A DNA stretch of 64,000 bases from Actinomycetospora soli (GTDB lineage: Bacteria > Actinomycetota > Actinomycetes > Mycobacteriales > Pseudonocardiaceae), in contig NZ_JAJNDA010000023.1 of the NCBI RefSeq assembly GCF_021026295.1, positions 1 to 64,000 of the forward strand, in the 5' to 3' direction. The notes beneath the pieces were generated by a model that was not told where the DNA came from, did no database searches, and saw only the letters and a program-made list of their open reading frames with translations. Both the position numbers and the translations under genes were made by a program. Positions 1 through 56,359 of the stretch are shown here, one piece after another. Each line of letters starts with the position of its first letter. Position 1 is the first letter of the stretch.

Positions 1-1
1 C

Positions 2-124
2 GGCTCGAGGACCCTGCGCGGGCGCACCACCGAGACCACCATCCACGCCCCCACCCGCCTGGCCGGACGCGCCACCCAGCCGTCCTCCAACGGCGACCCC
101 ACACCCGCACACGAACCCGCCTGA
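2..124 (+). CDS. C-terminal end of an unrecognised protein (5' cut by window)
   Basis: An open frame from the first bases ends at a TGA at 122-124 and gives 40 residues rich in Thr, Arg and Pro, with no recognisable motif. GC-rich codon use and the clean stop before a spacer of about 590 bp suggest the true tail of a gene starting upstream of the window. It could be a transposase or other accessory protein, but nothing visible decides this. Confidence 0.4.
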   Translation, partial: GSRTLRGRTTETTIHAPTRLAGRATQPSSNGDPTPAHEPA

Positions 125-233
125 CCCCAGGCGCCGGCCAGGTCGGCGGGCGCACACGCCCCGAGGTGCACACCAGGCAGCCTCCACCGCCCTCGGGCAT
201 GCCTGAGGTGCCACTCGAGGAGACGCCGGCAGC

Positions 234-604
234 CAAGATCCTGTTCCGCCGCGCATAGTGTTCGCTCAGCGACCACATCGCGCGGCCCGGCAAGATCTTG
301 ACCCTGAGACCGACGGGCGCACCCGCCGTCCGGAAGCCCTCCGCCGCGAGGCAGGCTCCGCCGCCGACGGACCCACCGGCACCCAAGATCCTGTTCCGCC
401 CGCATAGTGATCGCCCAGCGACCACATCGCGCGGCCCGACAAGATCTTGACCTCCGGGACCGCCGGGCGCACCCGCCGTCGGGAAGCCCTCCACCCCGAG
501 GTGCACACCAAGCACGTCCCGCGAACGGGTCGGCACCCAAGATCCTGTTCCGCCGCGCATAGTGATCGCCCAGCGACCACATCGCGCGGCCCAACAGGAT
601 CTTG
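234..604. repeat. Tandem array of three ~67-bp long imperfect palindromes
   Basis: Copies lie at 234-300, 384-449 and 538-604 (starts 150 and 154 bp apart). Each begins CAAGATCCTGTT. Copy 3 ends with the exact reverse complement AACAGGATCTTG; copies 1 and 2 end CAAGATCTTG. Inside are a second pair, GCCGCGC/GCGCGGC, and a near pair, GTGATCGC/GCGACCAC, around a CCA tip, so one strand folds into a single long hairpin. The spacers are also related: each of the first two carries an ACCCGCCGTC...GGAAGCCCTCC segment, and GAGGTGCACACCA recurs at 166 and 499. The whole stretch 125-716 holds no credible gene; it may act as a REP-like element, terminator array or recombination site. Confidence 0.8.
471..485 (-). 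repeat. Dispersed 15-mer TTCCCGACGGCGGGT, copy 1
   Basis: Exact copy on the minus strand, lying in the spacer between palindromes 2 and 3 of the upstream array. A variant with one change sits at the same place in the preceding spacer (321-335). Confidence 0.7.
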
Positions 605-716
605 CTCCCGCGCCCACCCACCCGTCCCGAGCGAAGGGGCCCCTCGCTCAATAGATTCGCCGGTGGGCGCCCCTCGCCAGGGCACCGGACCACATCTGCC
701 GTCGCGAAGGAGCGCC

Positions 717-1604
717 ATGACCCAGCTGCCGGAGCCGTTCACCTACCGACGTGTGGACGCCGACGGGGTCGCGATCAACGTGGCGGTCGGCGGCTCCGGC
801 AGCCCGGTGCTGCTGCTGCACGGCTACCCGCAGACGCACCTGATGTGGCGGGACGTGGCGCCGGAGCTCGCCCGGGAGCACACCGTGGTGGTGCCCGACC
901 TGCGCGGCTACGGCGCGTCGGACAAGCCCACGCCCGACGCCGAGGCCCGCACCTACGGCAAGCGCGCCATGGCGGCCGACCAGGTCGCGGTGATGCGGGA
1001 GCTCGGGTTCGACCGGTTCGACCTGGTGGGCCACGACCGCGGCGCCCGGGTGTCGCACCGGCTCACCCTCGACCACCCGCAGGCCGTCGAGCGCCTGGCG
1101 GTGCTCGACATCGTGCCCACCCGGCACGTCTACGCGAACGTCGACCGCGCGCTGGCGTTCGGCTACTTCCACTGGTTCTTCCTGGCCACCGGCGGCGACG
1201 TCCCCGAGACCCTCCTGCGCGGCGCCCCCGAGTTCTGGATCCGCACGATGGTCGAGCGGCTGCTGGCGCCCGGCGTCACGATCGCGCCGGAGGTCATGGA
1301 CCACTACATCGCCGCCTTCTCCGACCCGGCCACCATCGCCGCGACCACCGCCGACTACAAGGCGGGCGCCGGGATCGACCTCACCGACGACGAGGAGACC
1401 TGGAACGCCGGGCACCGCGTCACGTGCCCCACGCTCGTGCTGTGGGGCGAGCACGGCTTCGTCGGGAAGAACTACGACCCGCTCGCCGTGTGGCGCGAGT
1501 ACGCCACCGACGTGAGCGGTCGGGCGATGCCCAGCGGCCACTTCATCCCCGAGGAGGCCCCGGCCGAGACGCTGGCGGAGCTGCGGAGCTGGCTGGCCGG
1601 GTGA
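717..1604 (+). CDS. Alpha/beta hydrolase, haloacetate dehalogenase-like
   Basis: 295-residue single-domain alpha/beta hydrolase, probably cytoplasmic. The nucleophile elbow reads GHDRGAR, with Asp instead of Ser, as in fluoroacetate and haloalkane dehalogenases. The Arg just after the Asp and a second Arg three positions on fit the carboxylate-binding pair of fluoroacetate dehalogenase, the HW in FHWFFLA fits its halide site, and the His of SGHFIPEE is the likely general base. Other family marks are LLLHGYPQTHLMW and DLRGYGASDKP. ATG at 717 was chosen because GAAGGAG lies just upstream; a longer frame would read back into the palindrome array. It ends 7 bp from the convergent rlmB. Substrate is inferred; an epoxide hydrolase is the main alternative. 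Confidence 0.8.
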   Translation: MTQLPEPFTYRRVDADGVAINVAVGGSGSPVLLLHGYPQTHLMWRDVAPELAREHTVVVPDLRGYGASDKPTPDAEARTYGKRAMAADQVAVMRELGFDRFDLVGHDRGARVSHRLTLDHPQAVERLAVLDIVPTRHVYANVDRALAFGYFHWFFLATGGDVPETLLRGAPEFWIRTMVERLLAPGVTIAPEVMDHYIAAFSDPATIAATTADYKAGAGIDLTDDEETWNAGHRVTCPTLVLWGEHGFVGKNYDPLAVWREYATDVSGRAMPSGHFIPEEAPAETLAELRSWLAG

Positions 1605-2675: not shown

Positions 2676-4091
2676 CTACTGCTCGTCGTCCTTCAGGGTC
2701 CAGACCGGTCCGTCGGGGGTGTCCTCGATCCCGACGCCGGCGGCGGTCAATTGGTCACGGATCGCGTCGGCGCGCGCGAAGTCGCGGTCCTTGCGGGCCG
2801 CGGTGCGCTGCGCGAGGAGGTCCTCGACGAGCGCGCCGAGCGCGGACCGGGCGGTGGTCCCCCCGGCCGCGTCCGCACCGGCCCAGTGCGGGTCGAGCGG
2901 GTCGAGGCCGAGCACGCCGGTCATCTCACGCACCGCCGTCGCGGCGGCGCGGGCCCCCGCGTGGTCGCCGTCGGCGAGGGCCGTGTTGCCCGCCCGCACC
3001 TGCTCGTGGACGGCGGCGAGCGCGGAGGGGGTGCCGAGGTCGTCGTCCATCGCCGCGGCGAACGCGCTGATGTCCGCCCCGCTCGCCGGCACCGGGCCGA
3101 CGCGCTCGGCGACGCGCGCCACGAACGTCTCGATCCGCCGGTAGGCCGACGCCGCCTCGGCGAGCGCGGCCTCCGAGTACTCGACGGTCGAGCGGTAGTG
3201 CGGCGCCACCAGGTAGTAGCGCAGCTCGACCGCGCGGACCCGCTCGAGCACCGCGGGGATCGTCAGGGTGTTGCCGAGCGACTTCGACATCTTCGCCCCG
3301 GCCATCGTCACCCAGGCGTTGTGCAGCCAGAAGTTCGCGAAGCCGTCGCCCGCGGCGTTCGACTGGGCCCGCTCGTTCTCGTGGTGCGGGAACACCAGGT
3401 CCAGCCCGCCGCCGTGGATGTCGAACGACGGCCCGAGGTAGTGGGTCGCCATGGCCGAGCACTCCAGGTGCCAGCCCGGGCGGCCGCGGCCCCACGGCGT
3501 CGGCCACGAGGGCTCGCCGGGCTTGGCGGCCTTCCAGAGCGTGAAGTCGCGCGGGTCGTGCTTGCCGCGCGAGGCCTGCTCGCCCTGCTCCATCTCGTCG
3601 GGCTTCTGCCCCGACAGCGACCCGTAGGTCGGCCAGGTCCCGACGGCGAAATACACGTCGCCCGAGCCGTTGTCGCACGGGTAGGCGTGCCCCGCGTCGA
3701 TGAGCCGGGAGATCAGCTCGATCATCTCGGTCACGTGCCCGGTGGCGCGCGGCTCGACCGACGGCGGCAGGCAGCCCAGCGCGTCGAAGGCGGACGTGAA
3801 CGCCCGCTCGTGCGTGGCCGCCCACTCCCACCAGGGACGACCCGCCTCGGCCGCCTTCGTGAGGATCTTGTCGTCGATGTCGGTGACGTTGCGCACGAGG
3901 CTGACGTCGAGCCCCTGGTGCATGAGCCACCGGCGCAGGACGTCGAAGTTCACACTGGACCGGACGTGCCCGACGTGCGGTACTCCCTGCACGGTCGCCC
4001 CACACACGTACATCGACGCCCGGCCCTCGTGCTGCGGGTGGAACTCCCGCAGCGCGCGTCTAGCGGTGTCGTACAGGTGCAGGCTCACCAC
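2676..4091 (-). CDS. cysS: Cysteinyl-tRNA synthetase
   Basis: 471-residue class I aminoacyl-tRNA synthetase that charges tRNA-Cys using ATP. Visible marks are the zinc-ligand Cys30 in YVCGATVQG, the HIGH signature as HVGH (39-42), [27 protein letters not shown] and the KMSKSLGN loop; an anticodon-binding DALR-type end follows. Full length and operon position fit CysS rather than its mycothiol paralogue MshC, which is shorter. The start is GTG at 4091, with a second in-frame GTG directly after. It follows the EspG-like gene by 7 bp and precedes rlmB by 2 bp. Confidence 0.95.
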
Positions 4092-4098
4092 GCGGATC

Positions 4099-4875
4099 CT
4101 ACGGACCGCAGGTCACGGCCCGTGCGGGCCCCTGCGCCGGATCGGCCCACAGGGCCAGCTCGCGGGCGATCGCGACCCGGTCCGCCGGGCGGACCCGCAC
4201 CTCGTCGCCGTCCCGCTCGACGATCGTCCGCCCCTCGGCCGCGTCGACGACGGTGACCGGCCCGACCCGCCGTCGGCCCACGTGCGCCCCCACCTGCAGC
4301 CGCCGCCGCGGCGGGGACGCCCGCAGGGCCGCGATCCTCGTCCCGACGGCGGGCGGGAGCCGGTGGGTGGGTGCGCCGCCGAAGAGCACGGCGGCGGGCA
4401 CGGTCAGCGCGCTGCCCCGGGGTCGTTCCTCCGGCGCCCGGGTGAGGACGAGGCGGGCGAGGGCCTCCACGAGTCCGGTCGCGTCGTCGGCCGGTGGGCG
4501 GGAGGTGAGGTCGACGGTCCACGCCTGGTCGGACGAGGTCTCGACCAGGACCGTCAGTTCGCCCGCCACGGCCGCGAACCAACCCCGCGGGTCGGGGTCC
4601 CAGCACCGGAGGTCGACGGCGACCTTTGGACGGTCGAGGACCCGCATCGCCTCAGCGAGGTCGGCGACCGGCACGGGCGCGTCGTCGGAACCCGTGCGCG
4701 CCAGGCCGCGTCCGCGCAGTCCGCAGAGCGCGGCGTGGTCGGCGGCGTCGCGTGCGGAGAGGGTGGCGCCGTGGTCGGGCACGTCGAGCAGCGGCGGGCG
4801 GTCGCCCAGGCGGAGGTGGCGCCACACCGCGACGACCGCGTCGCGCTCCAGGTGGAGCCGGCGGGCCGGCATCAT
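4099..4875 (-). CDS. EspG-like ESX secretion-associated protein
   Basis: 258 residues without signal peptide or membrane segment, so cytoplasmic. EspG proteins are chaperones that bind PPE proteins and keep them soluble until export by an ESX (type VII) system. The assignment rests on size, the N-terminal pattern of an alternating hydrophobic strand followed by a Leu-Pro-Pro-rich stretch, and the ATGA overlap with the preceding PPE-like gene (4872-4875), which implies coupled translation. No ESX core gene (EccB-E, MycP, EsxA/B) is in the window. Sequence divergence is large, so this is probable, not certain. A near copy of the dispersed repeat (4341-4353) lies within it. Confidence 0.6.
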
Positions 4876-14343: not shown

Positions 14344-15369
14344 GTGAGCTCCGTGCGCGCCGTGCCCGAGACCACGGACATGCACGGCGAGGACCTCTCC
14401 GCCGACGACGCGTGGCACACCGCGCGCCGCGTCGGGCTCGGGACGTTGCTGCGCACGTCCTTCCTGCGCTTCCGCTACGGCGACGGCTTCAGCCACGCGC
14501 GCGCCTTCGCGCTGCAGCTCGCCCTCGCGACGGTGCCGCTGATCATCGCCGGGAGCGGTCTCGCGACGGCGATCGGCGCGGAGTCGGTGGCCCAGGTGGT
14601 CGCGCGGACGGTGGTCGCGGTGTCGCCGGGCACGGGCGACCAGCTCCTGGCCGACGTCGTCGCCCGGGGCGCGGAGGCACCCGCCGTCGGGAACGACGAT
14701 GACGACGACGGGCCGGGTGAGAACCTCGGCGAGCTGGCGGTCGCGTTCGGACTCGTCACGGCCTTCGTCGCGATGACGAGCGCCTTCGCGCAGCTGGAAC
14801 GGGGCGCCAACCGCGTCTACGGCGTGGAGCGGGACCGGCCGGCGCTGCGGAAGTACTCGCGCGCGGCCCTCCTGACGGCGACGGCGGGTGCCGCGCTCGG
14901 CGTGGGTCTCGTCCTCATCGTGGCGGGCGGGCCGTTCGGCGACGCCATCGAGGAGGTCTACCGCTGGGGCGACGCGGCGGAGACGGTGTGGGACGTGGTG
15001 CGCTGGCCGATCGGGCTCGCGGCGCTCGTGCTCGCCGTGACCACGCTCTTCCGCTTCGCCCCGCGCCGTCACCAGCCGGGACTCTCGTGGCTGGCCCTCG
15101 GGGCGGGCCTGACGGTCGCGGTGTGGCTCGTCGCGTCGGGCGCGATCGCGCTCTACGTCTCGGTCTCCGGGGAGTTCTCGGCGACCTACGGCCCGCTCGC
15201 CGGGATCATGGTGCTGCTGCTCTGGGCCTTCGTCACGGGCGTCGCGCTGCTCGCCGGGATCGCGGTGTCCGCGCAGCTGGAGGCCGTGCGCGCGGGCGTG
15301 ACCGACCCGCTGCTCGTCGACGCCGACGACGACGGGGTCCCCGACGAGCGGGCGGTGACGGGTAGCTGA
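14344..15369 (+). CDS. YihY/BrkB family inner-membrane protein
   Basis: 341 residues with about six membrane helices (for example AFALQLALATVPLIIAG, LLTATAGAALGVGLVLIVAG, IMVLLLWAFVTGVALLAG). YihY/BrkB proteins are polytopic proteins of unsettled function, once mistaken for RNase BN. An acidic loop with five Asp in a row after PAVGN is coded partly by a copy of the dispersed 15-mer (14679-14693) and looks like an insertion. Start GTG 14344. Its stop codon lies inside the operator of the downstream WYL regulator. Confidence 0.8.
   Translation: MSSVRAVPETTDMHGEDLSADDAWHTARRVGLGTLLRTSFLRFRYGDGFSHARAFALQLALATVPLIIAGSGLATAIGAESVAQVVARTVVAVSPGTGDQLLADVVARGAEAPAVGNDDDDDGPGENLGELAVAFGLVTAFVAMTSAFAQLERGANRVYGVERDRPALRKYSRAALLTATAGAALGVGLVLIVAGGPFGDAIEEVYRWGDAAETVWDVVRWPIGLAALVLAVTTLFRFAPRRHQPGLSWLALGAGLTVAVWLVASGAIALYVSVSGEFSATYGPLAGIMVLLLWAFVTGVALLAGIAVSAQLEAVRAGVTDPLLVDADDDGVPDERAVTGS
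14679..14693 (-). repeat. Dispersed 15-mer TTCCCGACGGCGGGT, copy 3
   Basis: Exact copy on the minus strand within the YihY gene, coding Pro-Ala-Val-Gly-Asn at the start of an acidic loop. Confidence 0.7.
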
Positions 15370-24402: not shown

Positions 24403-25056
24403 GTGACCTCGACGCTCGTGGTCGGCCACGACCACGTGGCCGGACTCGGCTGCCTCGCCGACCGCCCGGAGCTCGGCGCGGTCACCTGGTGCACCGCGCA
24501 CCCCGACGCCGGGTTCCCCGACCCGACGCCCCACGACCTCGTCGTCGTCCTCGGTGCGCCGTGGCCGCGGTCGGCGATGCCCTGGATCGAGCGCGAACGG
24601 GCCTTCCTGACGACCGCCCACGACGCCGGGGCCCGCGTGCTCGGGATCTGCTTCGGCGCCCAGCTCGTCGCCGAGGTGCTCGGTGGCTCCGTGCGGCGGC
24701 TGGACCGGCCACGGATCGGCTGGTTCCCCGTCGGACCGCAGGACGACCGCGTCGCGGCCGGCCCCTGGTTCTCCTGGCACGCCGACCAGCTCGACCCGCC
24801 GTCGGGAAGTCACGTCCTCGCGCACGACGACGCCGGCGTCGCCGCCTTCCGCCACGGCCGCTGGGCCGGCGTGCAGTTCCACCCCGAGATGACCCCGGCG
24901 CTGCTCGAGCGCTGGTTCTCGGCGCCGGGGAGCGATCCCGACGACGGGTTGCGCCGCGACACCGCACGCCACGCGCCCGCCGCGGCGGCCGCCGTGCCGG
25001 GACTGCTGGGCGCCCTCCTCGACGACGAACGGGCCGCCCGTCACCCCGGGAGGTGA
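24403..25056 (+). CDS. Class I glutamine amidotransferase-like protein
   Basis: 217 residues. Nucleophile Cys in LGICFGAQLVAEVLGG and the His-x-Glu in VQFHPEMTP complete the Cys-His-Glu triad of GATase1. Stand-alone members hydrolyse glutamine-like amides or gamma-glutamyl compounds; no synthetase partner is adjacent, so the substrate is unknown. Start GTG 24403. A copy of the dispersed 15-mer (24794-24808) lies in the coding region as Pro-Pro-Ser-Gly-Ser. The stop lies in the right arm of a shared terminator. Confidence 0.85.
   Translation: MTSTLVVGHDHVAGLGCLADRPELGAVTWCTAHPDAGFPDPTPHDLVVVLGAPWPRSAMPWIERERAFLTTAHDAGARVLGICFGAQLVAEVLGGSVRRLDRPRIGWFPVGPQDDRVAAGPWFSWHADQLDPPSGSHVLAHDDAGVAAFRHGRWAGVQFHPEMTPALLERWFSAPGSDPDDGLRRDTARHAPAAAAAVPGLLGALLDDERAARHPGR
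24794..24808 (-). repeat. Dispersed 15-mer TTCCCGACGGCGGGT, copy 4
   Basis: Exact minus-strand copy within the amidotransferase gene. Confidence 0.7.
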
Positions 25057-37248: not shown

Positions 37249-37917
37249 TCAGCGCGGCGGGCGGCGGCGGTCCTGCGCGTGCGCCGCGAGCAGCTCGGCG
37301 ACCGTGCGCCCTCCCGTGGTGCGGCCGGGCAGCGACGGCTGCGACGGGTGCGAGACCTCGTTGACGTGCTGGCGCGGCAGGCGCGGACCGTTCCCGACGG
37401 CGGGTGGGGCGGACCGGGCGCGGGGCCCCTCGCCCGCGACGACGTGCAGCTGCGGCGGCAGCGGCGCCGCCCGGGTCTCCGCGTTCTCCAGGTGCGAGCG
37501 CAGCCGCTCGACCTCGGCGCGCAGCCCCGCGAGCTCCTGCCCGGCCTCGGCGGCGACCTCGCGGCGCACCGTCTGCTCGACGGTCAGCTCGTGCTCGCGA
37601 CGGGCGTCGACCTCGGCGGCGAGCTCGAGCTCGTAGGTCCGGCGCATCGACTCCAGCTCGCGCTCCGGGTCGCTCCCGCCGGCCCCGCTGCGGCGGGCGA
37701 GGGCCGCGACGGCGAGCAGCGCCGCCCAGAGCCCGGCGATCACGCCGAGACGCAGCATCCGGTCGTCGTCGGCGAAGACCACCGTGGCCGCGGCGACCGC
37801 GGCGCACAGCGCGGTGACGACGAGCAGGACACGCACCACGGGGTCACCGGGCCGTCCACCACCCGAGGCGGGGGACGGGCGCGACCCGCGACGCCGGTCG
37901 GCCCCGGGGTTGGCCAT
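37249..37917 (-). CDS. DUF6779-type membrane/coiled-coil protein (Rv3604c-like)
   Basis: 222 residues. Two short membrane helices (~28-48 and ~55-72) precede a coiled coil (ERELESMRRTYELELAAEVD..., about 85-140) and a disordered C-terminus. Conserved position between folK/DUF3180 and the PrsW-like gene. Function unknown; a scaffold role at the membrane is conceivable from the topology. A copy of the dispersed 15-mer lies in the disordered tail region (Pro-Pro-Ala-Val-Gly-Asn). Confidence 0.75.
   Translation of the reverse strand: MANPGADRRRGSRPSPASGGGRPGDPVVRVLLVVTALCAAVAAATVVFADDDRMLRLGVIAGLWAALLAVAALARRSGAGGSDPERELESMRRTYELELAAEVDARREHELTVEQTVRREVAAEAGQELAGLRAEVERLRSHLENAETRAAPLPPQLHVVAGEGPRARSAPPAVGNGPRLPRQHVNEVSHPSQPSLPGRTTGGRTVAELLAAHAQDRRRPPR
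37391..37405 (+). repeat. Dispersed 15-mer TTCCCGACGGCGGGT, copy 7
   Basis: Exact copy in the tail-coding part of the DUF6779-type gene, followed by GGGG. Confidence 0.75.
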
Positions 37918-56344: not shown

Positions 56345-56359
56345 TTCCCGACGGCGGGT
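56345..56359 (+). repeat. Dispersed 15-mer TTCCCGACGGCGGGT, copy 10
   Basis: Exact copy 5 bp after the ppa stop, in the 70-bp spacer before the next gene. Confidence 0.75.

Follow-up and report, generated by a model that had tools for sequence, protein, structure and literature searches.

A palindrome array in Actinomycetospora soli and a candidate mobile unit pairing its palindrome with an AbiEi-DUF559 gene

The window, a 64,000-nucleotide stretch of Actinomycetospora soli DNA (contig NZ_JAJNDA010000023.1, positions 1 to 64,000), carries near its left end three palindromes of about 67 bp in tandem. We consider it probable, at roughly 0.6, that this array consists of the tandem solo ends of a unit of ~1.1 kb, in which a single AbiEi-DUF559 gene lies between two such palindromes. 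The unit would be IS-like or "REPtron-like", with an enzyme unrelated to RAYT. The genome comparisons described below point to the palindrome-bracketed AbiEi-DUF559 gene as a previously undescribed kind of bacterial mobile element, for which a mechanism is proposed further on.

The array and its dispersed palindrome family

The array lies between the end of a cyclase gene and a hydrolase gene, and is laid out as follows.

2..124, + strand: 3' end of a HAMP-adenylate/guanylate cyclase gene, 40 codons plus stop, cut by the contig end; outside the element
234..300, no strand assigned: palindrome unit 1, 67 nt
301..383, no strand assigned: spacer 1, resembling spacer 2, with a 15-mer at 321-335 (one mismatch)
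384..449, no strand assigned: palindrome unit 2, 66 nt, with a one-base deletion
450..537, no strand assigned: spacer 2, with the 15-mer exact at 471-485
538..604, no strand assigned: palindrome unit 3, 67 nt, with perfect 12-bp outer arms
717..1604, + strand: alpha/beta hydrolase gene (PF00561, E 1.5e-28); outside the element

The sequence-only reading of this DNA had described three copies of about 67 bp that fold end to end, perfect 12-bp outer arms in the third and a window-wide 15-mer in the spacers, and each of these descriptions is confirmed. The units start 150 and 154 bp apart. As RNA, the plus strands of units 1, 2 and 3 fold at -34.9, -29.1 and -41.6 kcal/mol (z scores of -6.4, -5.8 and -10.1), and the minus strands likewise have negative z scores (-5.4, -6.3 and -8.1). 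Ungapped complementarity amounts to 24/33, 15/33 and 26/33 pairs, the low value of unit 2 resulting from its one-base deletion. From left to right, the palindrome consists of CAAGATC, seven bases of lower conservation, an inner stem of 18 bp whose loop has 3 nt, another seven bases and GATCTTG. Unit 3 has a palindrome score of 18.8, compared with best scores of 13.8 to 19.4 in five block-shuffled windows; at this high GC content a lone palindrome with such a score is not unusual, and significance rests on the palindrome family rather than on any one hairpin. No Rfam family matched window positions 1-720 at E values up to 1. A classical rho-independent terminator is unlikely because the longest T run is only 2 in the 10 nt past either end of the 59 copies in this genome.

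The spacer 15-mer, ACCCGCCGTCGGGAA, has 14 matches in the window with at most one mismatch, against 0.02 expected; its places include 471-485, 14679-14693, 24794-24808, 37391-37405 and 56345-56359. At another locus (L134:2182-2217) a short palindrome has this 15-mer as its arm, and the 15-mer may therefore be part of the ordinary intergenic terminators of the genus.

The contig (G000:C15, G000 being the genome under study) starts at window base 1, so that the assembly truncates the gene at 2-124. It had been suggested that this gene might be a transposase serving the array, which we reject. The 40 residues that remain of its product exactly match the C-terminus of a protein (P0002; Pfam PF00211 and PF00672) encoded on contig C44, in a near-copy of the locus (L024) where the cyclase gene is followed by two palindromes 99% and 96% identical to unit 3. 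At the orthologous locus of a relative, G001, the cyclase is found at L081:341-667 with 73% identity. Judged from this near-copy and this orthologue, the cut gene is a cyclase. C15 and C44 are paralogous cyclase loci, each with an array. Window positions 1-470 align with L024:3888-4321 at ~86% identity over the cyclase tail and the palindromes.

The sequence-only reading had also called for a search with the unit in the genome and its relatives, and other copies are present in both. A search of its own genome with unit 3 returned 68 matches, both strands counted. A covariance model built from 38 copies gave 118 matches, which are the two strands of 59 places in G000, and a profile search of the retrieved regions likewise found 59 places. 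Copy length is strikingly uniform, with 54 of the 59 exactly 67 nt long and the others 66-72. Among the 100 genomes searched, 16 have a match, the genome under study included: 13 of the 18 from the genus Actinomycetospora, one from another genus of the family and two from the order. One of the order-level matches (L054) resembles an unrelated palindrome.

The copies are intergenic; across four genomes, 100 of 101 overlap a predicted gene by no more than half, in regions with a coding fraction of 86%. Their clusters lie in tandem gaps in 43 of 76 cases, in convergent gaps in 28 and in divergent gaps in 5, compared with 51, 13 and 38 of 102 control gaps from one relative (Fisher p 3e-4 for the convergent excess and 1e-6 for the divergent deficit, orthologous clusters entering these counts more than once).

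Differences between the window copies had earlier been read as partly compensated, in keeping with selection on structure. This does not hold within the genome, where the covariation among 38 copies was matched by 61 of 500 shuffles and the arms vary almost independently; it does hold across the genus. In an alignment of 60 copies from 12 genomes (A3), 152 cells covary compared with 84.7 ± 7.2 in shuffles, a value reached by 0 of 500, although copies found by a structure model lean toward pairing and relatedness alone can beat shuffles. Slid controls gave 33-55 cells. The alignment contains 22 of the 59 copies of G000, 17 of 28 from G001, 6 of 8 from G003, 4 of 6 from G015 and 11 from eight other genomes. 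Covariation that is evident across the genus and not within the genome indicates that palindromy is maintained across species time but not, as far as is visible, during the lifetime of the copies in a single genome.

Paired repeats around AbiEi-DUF559 genes

On contig C12 (L027), a lone gene of 303 codons and a stop stands between a group of four palindromes and a group of two. The nearest window-type palindromes lie ~50 bp away on the upstream side of this AbiEi-DUF559 gene and no more than 10 bp away on its downstream side. Its product, P0001, shows similarity to AbiEi_1 and AbiEi_4 in the N-terminal half and has DUF559 at the C-terminus. AbiEi_1 and/or AbiEi_4 are likewise found in the unit proteins, some of the matches lying below the curated cut-off, and the PADLOC AbiEi model matches with E 1.3e-22. 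The DUF559 match of P0001 scores 28.4 bits against a curated cut-off of 20.6, and those of seven other unit proteins score 20.7-33.8. Similarity to REase_MTES_1575 is also seen at the C-terminus, with all matches below the curated cut-off of that model.

The C-terminal domain resembles DUF559 endonucleases in its conserved D, E-x-D, H and R positions. In an alignment of 68 of the 71 proteins (L121, L122 and L173 left out), E246 is present in 68/68, D235 in 66, D248 and R265 in 65 each and H253 in 61. Such conserved residues are expected of an active metal-dependent nuclease of the DUF559-type group. A profile search found one solved relative, 3hrl, an 'Endonuclease-Like Protein' (E 1.9e-5). 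An AlphaFold model computed from three sequences has a mean pLDDT of 83 and a pTM of 0.65; the predicted succession of helices and strands is consistent with a winged-helix N-terminus followed by an alpha/beta C-terminal domain, the latter modeled less confidently. The C-terminal domain is thus best described as a putative endonuclease, with nuclease action presumed from its conserved residues and relatives.

Of 197 genomes sampled from the class, 140 have relatives of the protein, the genome under study included, and a scan of genome contigs with P0001 gave five loci. The same query had no match on plasmids (E 1e-15) or in phages (E 1e-8). A viral scan with another protein of the window, which we take to be CarD-like, also returned no match.

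Bracketing was measured by aligning the 200 bp upstream of each gene with the 200 bp downstream, at a threshold score of at least 20. In the genus, 18 of 22 AbiEi-DUF559 genes reach this score compared with 2 of 313 control genes, neither of which is AbiEi-DUF559 by translation. When the four loci from which the idea came (L027, L085, L127 and L128) are set aside, the count is 14 of 18. The genus genes below the threshold are L126 (17), L123 (12.5), L130 (9) and L137 (8.5). Palindromes scoring at least 15 are present on both sides of 5 of the 22 genus genes and 1 of the 313 controls. The 22 genes were drawn from 50 DUF559 matches in the genus and comprise all 6 of G000, all 4 of G001 and hand-picked ones from G003 (3 of 8), G004 (1 of 4), G006 (3 of 4), G007 (4 of 5) and G011 (1 of 4); the controls are predicted ORFs of at least 100 aa from 20 stretches of 20 kb of one complete relative, called with a home-made gene finder.

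Outside the genus, 15 of 29 and then 12 of 20 loci of the class score at least 20 (27/49), compared with 0/812 and 0/380 pairs of mismatched upstream and downstream flanks (0/1192), pairs that are not independent, so that Fisher values are rough. The remaining 22 of the 49 loci have no paired flank at this score. This sample is non-random: the 29 loci are the best matches of 29 genomes, with the locus from the genome under study (L164) left out, and the 20 further loci were picked from later rows of the same match list, G103 being skipped for an internal stop. L173, which has an internal TGA, was counted as a bracketing miss, and start codons were partly set by expected length. The scan called a palindrome beside only 16 of the 27 bracketed loci. 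The repeats at L181 and L219 resemble plain repeats.

The repeats hold similar positions relative to the genes. In the genus, 36-60 bp separate the end of the upstream palindrome from the start codon, and in the clear cases the downstream palindrome ranges from overlapping the stop codon to starting 16 bp after it. The flank repeats differ between gene lineages (67, 78, 48 bp and others), several having GATC near their ends, and palindromes of the other families measure about 44-78 nt. Some of these types are also dispersed as solo copies: with the two copies beside the gene counted in each case, a 78-bp palindrome occupies 10 places in G000 and a 68-bp palindrome 8 places in a genome from a different family. 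Among 222 non-orthologous pairs of loci, flank repeats are common to 7/7 pairs with at least 65% protein identity versus 12/215 of the others. By this comparison, palindrome type follows protein type, even at unrelated loci.

Unit boundaries and differences between relatives

The limits of homology between units coincide closely with the palindromes. The limits of homology between L027 and L085 (-117/-116 and +72/+77) agree to within one base with the outer edges of the palindromes; L027 and L134 are homologous over both palindromes, and where measured this homology ends no more than a base from the outer edges. For the seven pairs at unrelated loci, homology never passes the upstream palindrome (7/7) and stops at or inside the downstream palindrome in 5/7; it continues for 9-44 bp past the downstream palindrome when L119 is compared with L124 and L131.

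Units also differ in place and orientation. A palindrome-gene-palindrome stretch 80% identical to the C12 unit is located at a different locus in G001. G007 also has the gene at that locus, and G000 has in its place two palindromes separated by 106 bp; the G000 gene itself sits inside another palindrome array, on C12. The right flank of L027 gave only short scattered matches when its orthologue was sought in eight relatives. One locus, lying directly downstream of the stop codon of a conserved gene, varies between relatives: a unit with the window palindrome type is present there in G004 and G017, one of a second type in G001, and the second type again in G000, where it is inverted between colinear flanks. 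The inversion between G000 and G001 has its breakpoints inside palindromes or at most 8 bp from them; in G004 and in G017, the orthologous flank ends one base short of the palindrome.

The solo palindromes give a less simple picture. Aligned stretches of G001 and G000 are ~83-95% identical and include ten palindrome loci common to both with both flanks aligned. At the window locus, G001 has a single unit (L081:787-853) versus three in G000, and DNA homology to G001 starts at 536, i.e. at unit 3. None of the five presence/absence sites (L111, L108, L043, L032 and L069) is a clean 67-bp solo insertion: L111 and L108 differ by ~194 and 455 bp, the whole intergenic stretch differs between relatives at L043 and L032, and at L069 a three-palindrome array within ~514 bp in G000 stands against ~30 bp without a palindrome in G001 (L090), a difference of ~480 bp. 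Target-site duplications were not seen by eye at the unit ends. In the orthologues of L043 (L243, L244 and L246), the gap where G000 has a solo 67-bp palindrome holds an unrelated palindrome-like sequence, GTGAGGGGA...TCCCCTCAC.

Proposed mechanism and alternatives

The unit, present elsewhere in the genome, consists of a palindrome of 67 bp, ~50 bp of DNA, one gene of ~300 codons, a few bp and a second palindrome. The AbiEi-DUF559 protein would bind its own palindrome and nick or cut it, and the break would be repaired from another palindrome-bearing site. Repair between the two ends of a unit could delete the gene and leave a palindrome, or could invert the gene; repair with another palindrome-bearing locus could copy the unit there. 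Solo palindromes would be left behind or multiplied as a result. Insertion, inversion and loss would all be possible because the two ends repeat each other in direct as well as in inverted orientation, and the three outcomes have counterparts in the data: solo palindromes, an inverted unit and a relocated unit. We infer both the break at the palindrome and the transposition from these sequence comparisons. In work on AbiEi antitoxins (PMC7319586), these proteins reportedly bound paired 23-bp inverted repeats in the promoters of their own genes, and neither of two antitoxins bound the other's repeats. The 67-bp palindrome is a site of this kind, and the attached nuclease could break DNA at or near it.

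An extension of this reading to the whole group is more tentative, and we place it slightly below even odds. AbiEi-DUF559 proteins would then be nuclease-transposases or homing enzymes acting on cognate palindromes of ~44-78 bp at the ends of their own genes, forming a mobile class widespread in Actinomycetes, with the dispersed families as non-autonomous offspring or scars. The bracketing by cognate repeats does suggest that many AbiEi-DUF559 proteins are enzymes of mobile units. If true, a large family whose members are at present annotated as AbiEi or DUF559 protein would gain a role, and palindrome families in Actinomycetes would gain an origin. It would also provide a second, independently evolved counterpart of REP/RAYT, REP-like systems having then arisen at least twice with unrelated enzymes. 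The protein and its palindrome would form a compact pair that is directly testable.

Several known systems share features with the proposed unit. Vsr-type and homing endonucleases offer a comparison for the DUF559 domain; the gene here differs in being flanked by palindromes, and no intron, intein or mismatch context was seen. In MITEs and solo-LTR-like remnants, short non-coding copies outnumber the gene-bearing form, as the short non-coding palindromes do here. The present family differs from MITEs and insertion sequences in the lack of target-site duplications and clean empty sites noted above and in copies that are nearly fully palindromic. The type IV toxin-antitoxin system AbiE is similar in the AbiEi-like N-terminal region, its AbiEi reportedly binding upstream inverted repeats in a cognate manner (PMC7319586), but a single gene was called between the palindromes of L027, with no AbiEii nucleotidyltransferase toxin inside the unit; the endonuclease-like domain is an addition, and downstream and dispersed palindromes are present here.

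The closest resemblance is to REPtrons, in which, as described (PMC2817692, PMC3733652), a REP stands on either side of the RAYT gene, cognate REPs are dispersed elsewhere and mutations in the arms are complementary. One gene between two palindromes, a cognate palindrome for each gene, intergenic solo copies, tandem clusters and complementary arm mutations are all found here. The sequence-only reading had proposed a REP/BIME-like element; the likeness stands for the dispersed, intergenic, tandem-clustered palindromes and the flanked gene and fails for the enzyme, which is AbiEi plus DUF559 and unrelated to the Y1 tyrosine transposase. No Y1 transposase (PF01797) was matched in the G000 assembly, which is 98% complete, whereas the model detected one in 10 of 14 control genomes; a Y1 gene could lie only in the missing ~2%. 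The palindromes of about 44-78 bp exceed the 20-40 of REPs and number in the tens of copies, REPs usually exceeding 100. Each end of a unit is itself nearly symmetric, and the palindromes of the window type end in CAAGATC...GATCTTG. By eye, the 10-bp flanks of 40 copies have no GTAG-type head in common beyond local array repeats. The units thus depart from REP/RAYT proper in enzyme, palindrome length and head sequence. The titles and abstract openings of the open-access papers searched gave no link between DUF559 or AbiEi fusions and palindromic repeats, and stated no function for AbiEi-DUF559 relatives. The system appears to be new because of these departures and the absence of such a link.

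Of the explanations that differ from the proposed unit, a passive origin survives best, though we regard it as rather unlikely. The palindromes would multiply by slippage or recombination, perhaps being kept as terminators or mRNA-stability hairpins, and the gene would move only by homologous recombination between them, with its protein playing no part. The growth of the window array in place, the deficit in divergent gaps and the lack of a clean solo insertion at the sites compared all agree with this, and arrays and relocation are accounted for without enzyme action. Such a process leaves unexplained, however, the bracketing of a single gene family, across several genera, by paired repeats that match its own protein type and lie at similar distances from start and stop codons.

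We also judge it unlikely that the protein is an autoregulator of the AbiEi type, with the upstream palindrome as its operator, the downstream one as a terminator or second operator and the solo copies as sites of a regulon. The cognate binding of AbiEi antitoxins to inverted repeats in their own promoters (PMC7319586) is a precedent for this, and an upstream palindrome ending 36-60 bp before the start codon is explained equally well. Against it, the solo copies avoid the promoter-bearing divergent gaps and favour convergent ones, the units of homology end at or near the palindromes, and nuclease-type residues are conserved.

A selfish defence or restriction-like module, in which the palindromes protect or mark the host genome, could draw on the PADLOC AbiEi match and the sub-threshold REase_MTES_1575 similarity, but with a single gene called between the palindromes at L027 and no partner toxin or methylase inside the unit, we hold it to be very improbable. 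REPs or BIMEs served by a RAYT or IS200/IS605 transposase, suggested by the clustered intergenic palindromes and by a flanked gene with cognate palindromes as described for RAYTs (PMC2817692), can practically be dismissed, given the lack of a PF01797 match and of a GTAG-type head, palindromes of 67 nt against the 20-40 nt given for REPs (PMC3733652) and a flanked gene that is AbiEi-DUF559.

Two further observations concern related genes and palindromes. At G005:C56:117504-118410, in a genome with no match to the window palindrome model, an AbiEi-DUF559 gene appears as two overlapping matches and is probably a broken copy. A palindrome that begins CAGGAAAGCGTCGTTGCTGTC... is present at unrelated intergenic sites in two species (L120:1767-1815; L108 near 3990-4180) and may constitute a separate dispersed family.
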